Shown in pieces: positions 37,918 to 43,264 of a stretch of DNA of 64,000 bases; within the stretch, counting starts at the first letter, position 1, and every line of letters starts with the position of its first letter. Source of the DNA: Nitrosopumilus sp. b3 (GTDB taxonomy: Archaea; Thermoproteota; Nitrososphaeria; Nitrososphaerales; Nitrosopumilaceae). The position numbers and the translations under genes are program-made. The stretch spans positions 347,345-411,344 of the forward strand of contig NZ_MU078696.1 of the NCBI RefSeq assembly GCF_014078525.1, written 5' to 3'. The notes under the pieces are model-generated. The model did no database searches. It saw nothing but the letters and a program-made list of their open reading frames with translations, and had not been told where the DNA came from.

Positions 37918-39984
37918 ATGGCAATCAATCCTTTCACAGCGTTTGTTTTTGATCTATTCATCTTATCTGCTATTATTATTACTGCATATACTTGCAATTT
38001 TTACTATCTTGCATTTCTTTCAAGAAAAAGAAATGAGACTCCAACAACTACTGATTGGGGGGACCCATCAATTACTATCCAACTTCCAATATACAACGAA
38101 AAGTATGTTGCAAAAAGATTGGTAGATGCCGTTTGTAATTTGGATTACCCAAAAGACAAGATGAGAATTATGGTATTAGATGATTCTGATGATGATACAG
38201 TTGATTTGCTTGGAGATGCAGTTGATGATTACAAAAAACAGGGATTTAAAATTGAACATATTCGACGAGAAACTCGAAGTGGCTACAAGGCAGGTGCGCT
38301 AAAACATGCAATGAAATCAACTGATACAGAACTTGTTGCAATCTTTGATGCTGACTTTATTCCACCATCATGGTTTCTTAAAAGAGCAATACCTCACTTT
38401 ACAAACTCAAAGATTGGTCTTGTTCAATGTAGATGGGGGCATGTTAATGAAAATTACTCTGCAATTACTCAAGCGCAAGCACTCAGTCTTGACTTTCATT
38501 TTCTTATAGAACAAAAGGCAAAAAGTAATTCTCATCTGTTTATGAATTTTAATGGTACTGCAGGAATTTGGAGACGTGATTGCATTGAAGATGCAGGAGG
38601 CTGGCATACTGCAACACTAGTTGAAGACCTTGATCTTAGCTATAGAGCACAAATGAAAGGTTGGAAATGTCTCTTTCTTCCAGACATTGTAGTTGATGCA
38701 GAACTACCTGTCCAGATGAATGCAGCAAAAAGACAGCAGTTCCGTTGGGCAAAAGGTTCTATTCAATGTGCAATTAAATTACTATCTGATATTGCACTAA
38801 AACGTAAAGTCGCAGTTGAAGCAAAAATTCAGGCATTTATTCAATTAACTCGCCATATTGTTTATCCATTAATGCTAATACAATTTTTATCTCTACCAAT
38901 TCTACTTGCAGGCCAAGTGAATCTTTATGTAATTAGTTTTTTGCCTGCAATAACTATTGCAACATATCTGGCAATGGGACCTGGAGCGTATATTATGATC
39001 ATGCAAGGTATGTACCAAAAATCTTGGAAGTCTAAAGCCAAGATATTGCCAGCACTACTAATTTACAATGCTGGAATGTCCGTGAACAATACTGTTGCAG
39101 TTTTTGATGCAGTTGTTGGTAAGAAAAACGAATTTCTTAGAACTCCAAAATATGGCATGCTGAAAACAAAAGATGACTGGAAAGATAATGCATACAATTT
39201 ACCTTTCTCACAAGTTACACTACTTGAGATCTTTTTTGGAGTATATGGTATACTGGGAATCTTTATTGCAGTTTTTTCAAATAATCCTATCTTTGTTCCT
39301 ATAATTGGGCTTCAGGCAACAGGATTTTTCTATATTGCATACATGAGTTTGTCTCATACGCGATTTAAAAGAAATAAATCCAGTAAACCCCGAACAAAAA
39401 CCAAGAAGGAAAAAATGGCAAATACTGTTTACAAACTTTCCATGGTTGGGATTGTCGGAATTATTGTTTTTGGAGGGTTTATGGCAATTTATGGATATAA
39501 TACTGATATCTATCCTCTAGATCGAATCAGGGGTCATCTTGATGGAATTGTTGGTTCATCAGATCCTACTGCAATCAAGAATCATCTCTATGCAATTCAA
39601 GAAGATTTGGCACTTGTAATGGAAAAAGTACCAGAAAAAACTGATGCAAATGGTGAGGTAATCTCTAAAAATCCTGTCTGGATATTTGCCACAGAATCTA
39701 CAAACTTGCTTAGAATACAAAATGATGTGGATACATTAGTTGCAAGTATTGAAAAAATTTCTACTGTGCCAAAGGATAGTTCTGCATACCATACAGGAAT
39801 GCTAGATATCAATGGTAGAGCACTATCTCTGAAAACCAACATTATGGATGCAACTCCCTACATGTACGTAAGTGTTGCAAACATCATGTTTAGTACAATT
39901 TGGATTGCAGCAATTTTGGGAATCTTTGCTGCATTAAAGAAAAAGAAACAACAATTAAAAGAACTCGATGAGACTGGAGTCTAA
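37918..39984 (+). CDS. Cellulose-synthase-like family 2 glycosyltransferase
   Basis: 688 residues, membrane bound. N-terminal TM, GT2 domain with DDSDDDT (near residue 84), DXD in FDADFIPPSWF (near 140), LVEDLDLSYR (TED-type base, near 238) and QQFRWAKGS (QxxRW, near 278), then four to five TMs. That set is processive GT-A polymer synthase/exporter (BcsA/HasA-like). The C-terminal 190 residues add a soluble domain between TMs, beyond a normal GT. Makes or exports an extracellular glycan of unknown sugar. Tail-to-tail with the coiled-coil gene (4-base overlap). Confidence 0.9.
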   Translation: MAINPFTAFVFDLFILSAIIITAYTCNFYYLAFLSRKRNETPTTTDWGDPSITIQLPIYNEKYVAKRLVDAVCNLDYPKDKMRIMVLDDSDDDTVDLLGDAVDDYKKQGFKIEHIRRETRSGYKAGALKHAMKSTDTELVAIFDADFIPPSWFLKRAIPHFTNSKIGLVQCRWGHVNENYSAITQAQALSLDFHFLIEQKAKSNSHLFMNFNGTAGIWRRDCIEDAGGWHTATLVEDLDLSYRAQMKGWKCLFLPDIVVDAELPVQMNAAKRQQFRWAKGSIQCAIKLLSDIALKRKVAVEAKIQAFIQLTRHIVYPLMLIQFLSLPILLAGQVNLYVISFLPAITIATYLAMGPGAYIMIMQGMYQKSWKSKAKILPALLIYNAGMSVNNTVAVFDAVVGKKNEFLRTPKYGMLKTKDDWKDNAYNLPFSQVTLLEIFFGVYGILGIFIAVFSNNPIFVPIIGLQATGFFYIAYMSLSHTRFKRNKSSKPRTKTKKEKMANTVYKLSMVGIVGIIVFGGFMAIYGYNTDIYPLDRIRGHLDGIVGSSDPTAIKNHLYAIQEDLALVMEKVPEKTDANGEVISKNPVWIFATESTNLLRIQNDVDTLVASIEKISTVPKDSSAYHTGMLDINGRALSLKTNIMDATPYMYVSVANIMFSTIWIAAILGIFAALKKKKQQLKELDETGV

Positions 39985-41507
39985 GGGATATTTAGATCCT
40001 TTCTTAGTTCATCAACTGCTCTGATTCCATAAATGTCTCTTACTTGTTGAACTCTAATTGTTTCTTTTAGCATATCTCTTCCTATCGCATTAGTTAAAAT
40101 TGAATACACATCACTGAATCTAATTTCCCACCTGTCTGCGCAATCTAATATTTTGCTTACTGCCCATTGTCTTACTTCTTGAGGAAGTGGAATCTTTTCA
40201 CCTGCTTCTATGGATACTCTATCAAATAGATTTACAATATCTGCAGTTTGTGCTGCCATATTTTCAATGTCTTTTAACTCGCCATATTTTGATTCAGAAT
40301 TCATTCTAACATTTGATTGGTATTCTGAAAGTTTTAGCAACGCCATCATCTCTTTAGATGAATCACTTGTTGCCTTGTTTGTGATATTTTTGATTGATTG
40401 TATTTCTTCAAATAATTTATCTGATTTTTTATGAAATTCTACTGTTGAAGCATCTTGTCTCTTTAGAATATCTGATGCTGATGCTATTTTTTGCTCAATA
40501 CTGTTTGTTTTATCAAAAACATTTTGCTTGAAATTTGAAATGTCTTCCTGGACTGACTTTAGTCCTTCTCCAACAAATGCAGTCGAGTCTGCTCTTTGCG
40601 ATAATCCTCCAATTTCAGTCTCAATTTTATCTATTTTCCCTCCTAAATCCTTCATAGTCTGTGTACTAAGGCTTTGAGCTGATTTTGCATTTTCTGAGAT
40701 TGTCTCAAATTGCTGTTTGAGTCCGTCAATAACCCCCCCAAGTGAATCGATTTTTGATGCTTTTGAAGAGATTGAATCAATTGTAACTTTGATTGCTTCT
40801 AATTCTGCATTAAGATCTGTTGTTGAGATTGAACCTTCTGCAATTCTTTCAAATTCTTGCTTGAGGCTTTGTATGATTTGATTTCCAGTATCTAGTTTTT
40901 CAGTTTTGTTTGAAATTTCTTCGAGATTATTTTTTAGCTTATTCATCTCAGAACTAATTTCTAAAAATGAATCTGTTTTTCCAGATACTTTTCTCATGTC
41001 GTCTCTTACCTCATCAATTCTTTGTGCGATTTTTATTATCATCTGGGAGTTGTTCTTAATTGAATTCATACTATCTTGTACTTGCTGAGATAATTCTTGA
41101 GGCTTTGTTGTTTTTTGAATCTCTGAAATTTTATTTATCTCATTTTGCAGTTTTTCTGTTTGCTGATTTATCTTACTTACAAGATTTGATTGAGTTCTTA
41201 CTTGATTTAACCCTGCATACAGTTTCTGAGTATCGTCTTCTATAATGTTGATTTGTTTTGATTGCTTTTGGATATACTCTAATGTTGATGTTAGCGTATC
41301 AATCATACCTTTCATTGACAGTAAAACTTTTTGATTTTCTCCAAAAATTTTCGACATTACTTTGATCTCTTTTTGTAATGCCTTGTTCGAATCTGAAACG
41401 GATGCTACTTTCTTTAGTAATACTGATGGTGTTGGCTCTTTAGTACTTTTTTTGACAACTTTTTTTGGATTTGCTGCGGTCTTTTTCTTTGTAGTTTTAG
41501 CTGCCAT
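39981..41507 (-). CDS. Long coiled-coil protein with basic N-terminus
   Basis: 508 residues. The first 35 residues are Lys-rich (AAKTTKKKTAANPKKVVKKS), like an AT-hook/H1-type DNA-binding tail. Residues about 40-420 are continuous heptad coiled coil with repeated motifs such as K(I/L)DxxxxxIxxL, resembling SMC/MukB-like rods but with no ATPase head. The last 80 residues are a conserved-looking globular helical domain (QEVRQWAVSKILDCADRWEIRFSDVYSILT). Could be a chromosome- or surface-structure organiser (inference). No family name recognised. Confidence 0.8.
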   Translation of the reverse strand: MAAKTTKKKTAANPKKVVKKSTKEPTPSVLLKKVASVSDSNKALQKEIKVMSKIFGENQKVLLSMKGMIDTLTSTLEYIQKQSKQINIIEDDTQKLYAGLNQVRTQSNLVSKINQQTEKLQNEINKISEIQKTTKPQELSQQVQDSMNSIKNNSQMIIKIAQRIDEVRDDMRKVSGKTDSFLEISSEMNKLKNNLEEISNKTEKLDTGNQIIQSLKQEFERIAEGSISTTDLNAELEAIKVTIDSISSKASKIDSLGGVIDGLKQQFETISENAKSAQSLSTQTMKDLGGKIDKIETEIGGLSQRADSTAFVGEGLKSVQEDISNFKQNVFDKTNSIEQKIASASDILKRQDASTVEFHKKSDKLFEEIQSIKNITNKATSDSSKEMMALLKLSEYQSNVRMNSESKYGELKDIENMAAQTADIVNLFDRVSIEAGEKIPLPQEVRQWAVSKILDCADRWEIRFSDVYSILTNAIGRDMLKETIRVQQVRDIYGIRAVDELRKDLNIP

Positions 41508-41567: not shown

Positions 41568-41675
41568 TTACTTGTTTACAACAGTTGGTTCGTGCAGTAA
41601 CTCATGAAAGGTCTTCTCAGCCAACCCATTTGCTGTTTCGATGAACCCTCTTGTACAATATTCACATTGAATCAT
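41568..41675 (-). CDS. C2H2-type zinc-finger microprotein, 35 residues
   Basis: Found by eye in the gap after the coiled-coil gene. ATG at 41675 reads MIQCEYCTRGFIETANGLAE, then KTFHELLHEPTVVNK. The pair C-x2-C and H-x3-H gives a C2H2 zinc finger with a long loop. The start codon abuts a perfect 25-bp palindrome (41676-41700), a strong sign of a controlled promoter. Probably a small DNA-binding regulator, perhaps acting on its own palindrome (inference). Confidence 0.6.
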   Translation of the reverse strand: MIQCEYCTRGFIETANGLAEKTFHELLHEPTVVNK

Positions 41676-41700
41676 ATAGTACGGTATGGTACCGTACTAT
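41676..41700. promoter_or_regulatory. Perfect 11-bp inverted repeat, operator-like
   Basis: ATAGTACGGTA, three bases TGG, then TACCGTACTAT: both arms are exact reverse complements. It touches the start codon of the zinc-finger microgene on the minus strand. A repressor there would block the start of transcription or translation; a transcription start just inside the palindrome would also make a tight mRNA hairpin over the start codon. Confidence 0.75.
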
Positions 41701-41935
41701 TAATACACAGGTGATTATGACGTAACCAATATTGCAGTCAGATACCCCAGGTCATTTCTCTACATAATATTCAGATGACCTAATCATCACTCTGCAAAAT
41801 TACTATCATTAATCATCATAAAGACGTTAAAGATTATCTCTATTGAGGGTATTTTCATTTATTTGTAATTTTATTAATTTGATTTGAAAGTTTTTAGTCA
41901 GAAATCATTTTTAAAGAAATTTGTTAACTCAATAC

Positions 41936-43264
41936 ATGCAAAACATTTCACTTCAATTAGATACTAGTGAAATTCATAACTCCCTTAACACAACTGTCAA
42001 TAGTTTAATTGAACAAATCACTCCCGAACTACCCCATGCATCGTTTGTAACTGATTTGGCATTTATCATGATTATTGGTGCGATAGTTACTTTGGCTTTT
42101 TTTAAAATTAGACAACCACTAATTATTGGATATCTTTTTGCCGGGATGCTTATTGGTCCCCTTTCTCCTTTCTGGTCTTGGGTGTTGCCTGAAGGCGGTC
42201 CGTCATCTGATGTGTTGGGAGGTGTTGGAATACTGTCTAACATCTCTGCATTGAATCTTTTTGCTGAGATTGGTGTGATTTTACTACTTTTTGTAATTGG
42301 CATTGAATTCCCTTACGCCAAGATCAAAAGTATTGGAAGAGTGGCAGTAGGTGTTGGGACATTAGGGTTATTTTCTACTTTAGGTGTGGTATTTTATGCT
42401 GCAACTGCATTGGGTTTGGGATTTTTAGATGCACTGTTTATTTCAGCAGCACTATCAATTTCCAGTACTGCAATAATCGTTAAAATTTTAGAGGAGATGG
42501 GCAGAATCAGAAATGAATCATCCATTCTTGTTTTAGGTATTTTAATTGTAGAAGATATTATAGCTGTTATTTTGATTTCATCTTTACAGTCAATTGCTTT
42601 AGTTGGAACAATATCTATAGAATCAGTAATTATCATTGCACTTGTAGCAGCTGGTCTGATAGTTGGGACTTTTACTCTTGGAACTAGAGTAATACCACCA
42701 TTAATTGATAAAGTTGCAGCAGCTGAGCATCGCGAAATTTTACTACTCAGTGTTTTAGGAGTATGTTTTGGGTATGCATTACTTGCAAATATTGTTGGAT
42801 TATCTGTTGCCATCGGAGCATTTTTGGCAGGTGTATTAGTAGCCGAATCAAAATCTGCCGAAGTTGCAAAATTACTTTCCAGTCCAATAAAAGACATGTT
42901 TGTAGCAATTTTCTTCATTTCTGTTGGTGCCTTGATGGATGTATCTGAACTTGAAAATTATATTTTCATTGCAATTGCACTGATAGCTGTTGCTACTGGA
43001 ATGAAGTTTGGTGGAAATTTGATTGGAAACATCATCTTTAGGCAAAGACGTGGTAAAGCAATTCGTTCTGCATTTACGTTAGGTGCTCCAAGAGGTGAAT
43101 TCTCAATTGTAATTGTAAAGGTTGGGGTGGACATAGGGGCAGTTAGTGCTTTCTTATTCCCCCTGATAGGTATAATTTCTATCATCACGGCTTTTATTTC
43201 ACCCTTTTTAGTAAAAGCTGGAGATAAAATAATTACCAAAGTAGAGGAAAAGAAAGATGTCTGA
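41936..43264 (+). CDS. Cation:proton antiporter, CPA2 (KefB/NapA-like)
   Basis: 442 residues from ATG 41936 (a TTG five codons earlier is possible). About twelve hydrophobic segments. Characteristic CPA2 stretches are seen: QPLIIGYLFAGMLIGP near residue 57, ALNLFAEIGVILLLFVIGIEF near 105, ALSISSTAIIVKILEE near 175, and GAFLAGVLVAES near 290. No RCK/TrkA-N domain follows, so it is the short form. Exchanges Na+ or K+ for H+ across the membrane. Overlaps the next gene by 8 bases. Confidence 0.9.
   Translation: MQNISLQLDTSEIHNSLNTTVNSLIEQITPELPHASFVTDLAFIMIIGAIVTLAFFKIRQPLIIGYLFAGMLIGPLSPFWSWVLPEGGPSSDVLGGVGILSNISALNLFAEIGVILLLFVIGIEFPYAKIKSIGRVAVGVGTLGLFSTLGVVFYAATALGLGFLDALFISAALSISSTAIIVKILEEMGRIRNESSILVLGILIVEDIIAVILISSLQSIALVGTISIESVIIIALVAAGLIVGTFTLGTRVIPPLIDKVAAAEHREILLLSVLGVCFGYALLANIVGLSVAIGAFLAGVLVAESKSAEVAKLLSSPIKDMFVAIFFISVGALMDVSELENYIFIAIALIAVATGMKFGGNLIGNIIFRQRRGKAIRSAFTLGAPRGEFSIVIVKVGVDIGAVSAFLFPLIGIISIITAFISPFLVKAGDKIITKVEEKKDV

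Follow-up and report, generated by a model that had tools for sequence, protein, structure and literature searches.

A perfect 25-bp palindrome next to the start codon of a 35-residue microgene in Nitrosopumilus sp. b3 is probably a DNA operator, and we predict that it belongs to a compact regulon of the family Nitrosopumilaceae with one such site per promoter. At about four copies per genome, the regulon consists of the C2H2 microgene itself, the gene for a 115-residue winged-helix protein, radA, and a gene encoding a CX2C-X22-CX2H microprotein (Zn-microprotein). The explanation that best accounts for the whole, and which we regard as likely, is that the winged-helix protein would be an autoregulated repressor controlling this small set of genes around radA, perhaps an archaeal counterpart of the bacterial SOS system.

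The palindrome and its microgene

The window, meaning the whole 64,000-nucleotide stretch of DNA that was analyzed, has the following features at this locus:

41676..41700, strand (.): 25-bp palindrome, with the predicted core operator TACGGTA-TGG-TACCGTA at 41680-41696 (G000:C4:389024-389040)
41568..41675 including the stop codon, minus strand: gene for the 35-residue C2H2-like microprotein (CX2CX16HX3H)
41698..41705, minus strand: TATA-like box TATTAATA, spanning 30 to 23 nt upstream of the ATG and overlapping the outer end of the palindrome

The palindrome is as perfect as the original prediction had stated, since its 11-nt arms, ATAGTACGGTA (41676-41686) and TACCGTACTAT (41690-41700), are 100% complementary around the 3-nt spacer TGG. 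No other perfect inverted repeat in the 64-kb window has arms of at least 11 nt and a spacer of 0-10. In Markov-1 simulations of the window, any such repeat arose in one of eight runs, and one with a spacer of 3 in none of the eight. Taken alone, the palindrome is mildly unusual; its significance lies in its conservation, not in its rarity within the window. The ORF at 41568-41675 on the minus strand (translation, MIQCEYCTRGFIETANGLAEKTFHELLHEPTVVNK) has its ATG at 41673-41675, so that the palindrome does end directly at the start codon, as had been noted.

The microgene is real and conserved. A single-sequence query recovered the protein in 31 of 37 genus genomes, the window's own counted; the genomes without a match (G001, G004, G005, G019, G029, and G030) include several incomplete ones. 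With a profile scan of 150 genomes of the order, the gene was found in 64 of the 65 family genomes, and outside the family a single match appeared, with an E value of 0.01 and internal stops. Identity to the window at codon positions 1, 2, and 3 is 93, 96, and 71%, and dN/dS is about 0.08 (42 distinct sequences). These figures mark the ORF as a protein-coding gene maintained by strong purifying selection. Twelve diverse sequences all keep Cys4, Cys7, His24, and His28, which presumably bind Zn. The classical C2H2 zinc finger has the pattern CX2CX12HX3-5H, from which the spacing here, CX2CX16HX3H, departs despite the invariant ligands, and Pfam C2H2 gave no match for residues 2-35. In a PDB profile search the best match spans only profile positions 3-16, and Pfam, NCBIfam, and PHROGs offered no useful family for either this protein or the Zn-microprotein. 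AlphaFold, given the window's peptide with no alignment and no metal, returned a single helix and not a zinc-finger fold, an outcome that lends the finger no support. By count from the sequence the protein is acidic (five Asp/Glu versus three Lys/Arg).

The palindrome is conserved along with the ORF, as the original prediction would have it. The palindrome or a near variant stands in the same position at each of the 30 genus loci read (L003-L032), and the exact core is present in 58 of the 60 distinct C2H2 upstream regions read; the two exceptions are L320, with a 4-nt spacer, and L318 (G188), where the site is degraded. The idea of an operator fused to the start codon is supported.

Predicted operator sites and promoter geometry across the family

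A search of the genus for the extended palindrome returned further recurring sites. The exact pattern TACSGTA-N3-TACSGTA has 1-5 copies in each of 40 genus genomes (chosen with a completeness filter of 95), and the reversed pattern, used as a control, has zero copies in all 40. An order-3 Markov estimate gives an expectation of 0.007 per 1.6 Mb for this pattern and 0.08 for the looser TACNGTA-N3-TACNGTA. The genome of the window has four sites: one each at the C2H2 microgene, the gene for the 115-residue winged-helix protein, and radA, and one in the spacer that separates the Zn-microprotein gene from trpE. With the looser pattern, 13 genus genomes yielded 58 sites, of which 52 belong to the four target genes, each once per genome; four of the other six lie at the gene for a 128-residue protein, one lies at another zinc-finger gene, and one is unassigned (G077, L220). 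The operator pattern is present in 17 of 19 family genomes from other genera and in none of 10 genomes from other families. In 12 genomes of the other genera, 41 of 42 sites could be placed in these four classes, the odd one being in G195 (L172). Of 18 sites in five other-genus genomes (G096, G101, G122, G149, and G154), 5 were read, and the remainder lie outside this count.

The product of radA is a RecA/Rad51-type recombinase, the main one for DNA repair in these archaea, passing the TIGR02236 equivalog cut-off with 398 versus 361 bits. It is the only one of the four targets with a known function. The fourth target encodes a CX2C-X22-CX2H microprotein of about 60 residues in which the Zn-ligand pattern is invariant. 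Several genomes of one genus (g28) carry an additional, diverged Zn-microprotein gene, and the one such copy read, in G137 (L335), has no operator.

Sites at two other genes were also seen. The gene for the 128-residue protein (PKAGFKSITVSETVYDKF..., ribbon-helix-helix-like by eye) has a TACTGTA-N3-TACGGTA promoter in 4 of the 13 genomes (L063, L068, L209, and L214 in G007, G035, G077, and G092) and is a possible lineage-specific fifth target. At L076, found only in G072 among the 13 genomes, a perfect operator stands at the ATG of another zinc-finger gene.

The counts of promoter geometry that follow come from regular-expression matches to distinct upstream sequences; the expression for radA misses diverged proteins such as those of G134 and G188. 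The TATA-like box starts 30-31 nt from the ATG in 58 of 60 C2H2 upstream regions and 29 nt before the start codon in all 23 radA regions, every one of which carries the operator. In the winged-helix set the automatic TATA score is scattered, and a conserved TAATAAGGTAA is seen by eye at the equivalent position. From the end of the site to the start codon, the gap is 4 nt for C2H2 (57 of 60), -1 for radA (23 of 23), and 2 nt for the winged-helix gene (81 of 85), and in all three promoters the site occupies the whole gap between TATA and start codon. A TATA box about 30 nt before the start codon predicts a leaderless mRNA, with the operator over the initiation region. The Zn-microprotein promoter is arranged differently: in most loci read, the site is followed by CCTTTATAT and then by the ATG about 33-35 nt on. 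The divergent trpE has a TTTAAATAATAAA box of its own before its GTG (alignable in 7 of 17 loci). We judged trpE the less likely fourth target because of this box and because the Zn-microprotein TATA directly adjoins the site. The TACSGTA unit is close to a palindrome in its own right, and the units lie 10 bp apart. The winged-helix promoter adds a second, weaker overlapping unit, TAAGGTA-ATG-TACCGTA, giving three units with a 10-bp period.

The candidate regulator and its proposed circuit

The winged-helix gene was found in 63 of 65 family genomes, and outside the family there were only two weak matches. Its own promoter carries the exact site at 73 of 75 readable named loci (80 loci, of which 75 were parsed); of the remaining two, one has a 4-nt spacer and the other is cut by a contig end. 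In a further set the site is present at all 28 parsed loci (of 30). The predicted structure is a confident winged helix from about residue 38, with the N terminus unsure (mean pLDDT of about 90 over residues 41 to 110). Its nearest folds are MarR/HxlR and ArsR regulators, Sso10a-2, and AspA (best E value, 6.5e-4), and they include the metal and thiol sensors CzrA, SmtB, SqrR, and YodB. The likeness to these proteins is one of winged-helix fold, whereas identity in the structure alignments listed is 10-22% and the protein falls below every curated cut-off: matches to MarR, ArsR, HxlR, and other curated families were only sub-threshold, and the Sso10a model (NCBIfam NF053610, cut-off of 60 bits) gave only 16.6 bits.

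The two family genomes lacking the winged-helix gene, G134 and G188, are also the two other-genus genomes that lack the operator pattern. Five of their promoters were read (radA and the Zn-microprotein gene in both, the C2H2 gene in G188), and in all five one half-site is kept and the other degraded. This observed co-occurrence of sites and winged-helix gene rests on two losses only, within one family and with phylogeny uncontrolled. The fold, the site in the gene's own promoter, the decay of sites where the gene is missing, and the acidic character of the C2H2 protein make the winged-helix protein the favored binder, and we think it a likely autoregulated repressor. The main counter-evidence comes from G188, where radA keeps TACGGTACGATACAGCA and the C2H2 gene keeps TACCGTACTATACCTCA and where no winged-helix homologue was detected; such partial sites mean that a different protein, or a diverged one, could be the binder. 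Also counting against the winged-helix reading, both regulator-less genomes retain a diverged Zn-microprotein gene, the operator of this fourth target has a position upstream of TATA that would suit an activator, and radA is the lone known repair gene among the targets read. A further point against comes from G198, where the winged-helix gene is in two overlapping pieces (L325 and L327) with an in-frame stop and may be broken or misassembled; the radA operator there is intact (L307).

We propose that the winged-helix protein would bind TACSGTA-N3-TACSGTA as one dimer or as two dimers side by side, in keeping with the near-palindromic units and their 10-bp spacing. At the C2H2, winged-helix, and radA promoters, where the site fills the gap between TATA and the leaderless start, the bound protein would block initiation. 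At the Zn-microprotein promoter it would instead cover the TFB recognition position just upstream of TATA. The site and the weaker overlapping unit at the regulator's own promoter would confer negative autoregulation. Repression would be relieved by some signal, for which DNA damage or replication stress is the most plausible candidate; both Zn-microproteins would then rise with RadA and might act back on the regulator or aid in repair. That the regulon would respond to DNA damage or to replication stalling is suggested by the presence of radA among the targets and by the recA/lexA analogy. The fuller version, a minimal SOS-like circuit in which the winged-helix protein represses itself, radA, and the two zinc microproteins, is released by damage, and has the C2H2 protein as a feedback or release factor, is a tentative proposal that we would put somewhat below even chances.

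Other readings assign the palindrome differently. The original prediction saw in it tight self-control by the 35-residue protein, and in that form the comparison does not bear it out: a private autoregulatory operator of the C2H2 gene was rejected because the motif is also at the radA, winged-helix, and Zn-microprotein promoters. In a broader form, the C2H2 microprotein would bind the palindrome and repress the other three genes as well as its own. Its invariant Zn ligands are consistent with this, as is the presence of its gene alongside sites in 63 family genomes; G188 has the gene too, with partial sites and no detectable winged-helix gene. Yet with 35 acidic residues and one non-classical finger it would need partners on a 17-bp site, and the winged-helix protein, whose own gene carries the site, is the better and more credible candidate; we hold the C2H2 protein to be an improbable binder. 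A refinement of the preferred reading, not exclusive of it, is that DNA binding falls to the winged-helix protein, with the C2H2 microprotein as its corepressor, antirepressor, or zinc/redox sensor. Both genes have the operator, both are present in 63 of the 65 family genomes, and G134 has neither, although shared descent within one family also predicts such co-occurrence and G188 has the C2H2 microgene without the winged-helix gene. This division of labor is conceivable, though somewhat less likely than not.

The signal could also be something other than DNA damage. A regulon sensing metal (zinc) or redox state, with radA as one member of a stress set, would fit the two of four targets that encode invariant Zn-ligand patterns and the sensors CzrA, SmtB, SqrR, and YodB among the nearest folds. 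Against it, radA is a constant member and no metal transporter or redox enzyme was found among the assigned targets in 13 genomes, and we consider this signal rather unlikely. Lastly, the palindrome had been suggested to form an RNA hairpin over the start codon. Pairing would be perfect if transcription began upstream, but the TATA box puts the predicted start right at the ATG. In the Zn-microprotein promoter the motif precedes TATA and falls outside the predicted transcript. On this promoter geometry the hairpin was rejected, and we give it hardly any credence.

The preferred reading, a winged-helix repressor of a radA regulon, has partial parallels in known systems. LexA combines a helix-turn-helix with a self-cleaving domain, and no match to such a self-cleaving domain was found in the 115-residue winged-helix protein. 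As in the bacterial LexA/SOS system, an autoregulated repressor, a recA-type recombinase, and small-protein genes share a promoter operator (for context, PMC2246294 and PMC9738581), and here too the proposed regulator's gene has its own operator. The proposed regulator, however, is an unrelated winged-helix protein, targets are very few, the promoters are archaeal, and induction by damage is a prediction. Archaea are reported to be without LexA homologues, and the coordinated SOS response appears restricted to bacteria (PMC2246294). Saccharolobus Orc1-2, of the Orc1-2/DDRE damage response, is an archaeal damage-response regulator with a winged helix that binds its own promoter, but it is an AAA+ protein acting through the hexanucleotide ANTTTC, and neither resembles the motif or the protein here (PMC9738581). 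In Halobacterium, the motif TTTCACTTTCA is common to the promoters of radA1 and a few other UV-B-induced genes; it differs in sequence, has an internal direct repeat, and lies upstream of TATA, with no regulator named for it (PMC2556686). Very small archaeal zinc-finger proteins are known from haloarchaea, including Brz, which affects transcription of a neighboring gene (PMC2253796), and other micro-proteins (PMC6562870). These have CPxCG-related motifs and not CX2CX16HX3H, and no link to radA was found there at abstract level.

Titles and abstract openings in the open-licence literature yielded no description of the motif, the winged-helix protein, or a radA regulon in the family, and that literature yielded no damage-response transcript data for Nitrosopumilaceae. 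An operator shared across the family by radA, its probable regulator, and two microproteins offers a specific lead, open to experiment, on how ammonia-oxidizing archaea control their recombinase, and it gives functional context to two conserved microproteins (35 and about 60 residues). If true, the proposal would place a minimal SOS-like circuit in abundant ocean archaea.

Neighboring elements in the window

Four further features surround the palindrome and its microgene:

39981..41507, minus strand: gene for a 508-residue coiled-coil-like protein, next downstream
41710..41727, minus strand: second conserved upstream element, consensus GGTTAC...ATNACC, just upstream of the C2H2 TATA
41732..41797, minus strand: putative C/D-box sRNA gene, with GTGATGA (C), CTGA (D'), ATGTAGA (C'), and CTGA (D)
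41936..43264, plus strand: divergent gene for a Na+/H+ exchanger family protein (PF00999)

No operator was found at the gene for the 508-residue protein itself. Roughly 235 nt, including the sRNA block, separate the exchanger gene from the palindrome. The GGTTAC...ATNACC element is possibly the site of another regulator. The segment at 41732-41797 is a probable C/D-box sRNA gene, a neighbor and not a member of the regulon. We take its four short motifs to be boxes C, D', C', and D. The block is near-invariant, has a terminal stem (TTGCAG/CTGCAA) and a fold z score of -3.06, and gave no match in Rfam. A C/D-box-like block is present in 53 of 64 distinct upstream regions and absent in several genera that keep the palindrome and microgene, which marks it as an independent feature. 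Before box D it has a near-invariant guide-like stretch, GACCTGGGGTA, and there is partial complementarity between its two guide regions.
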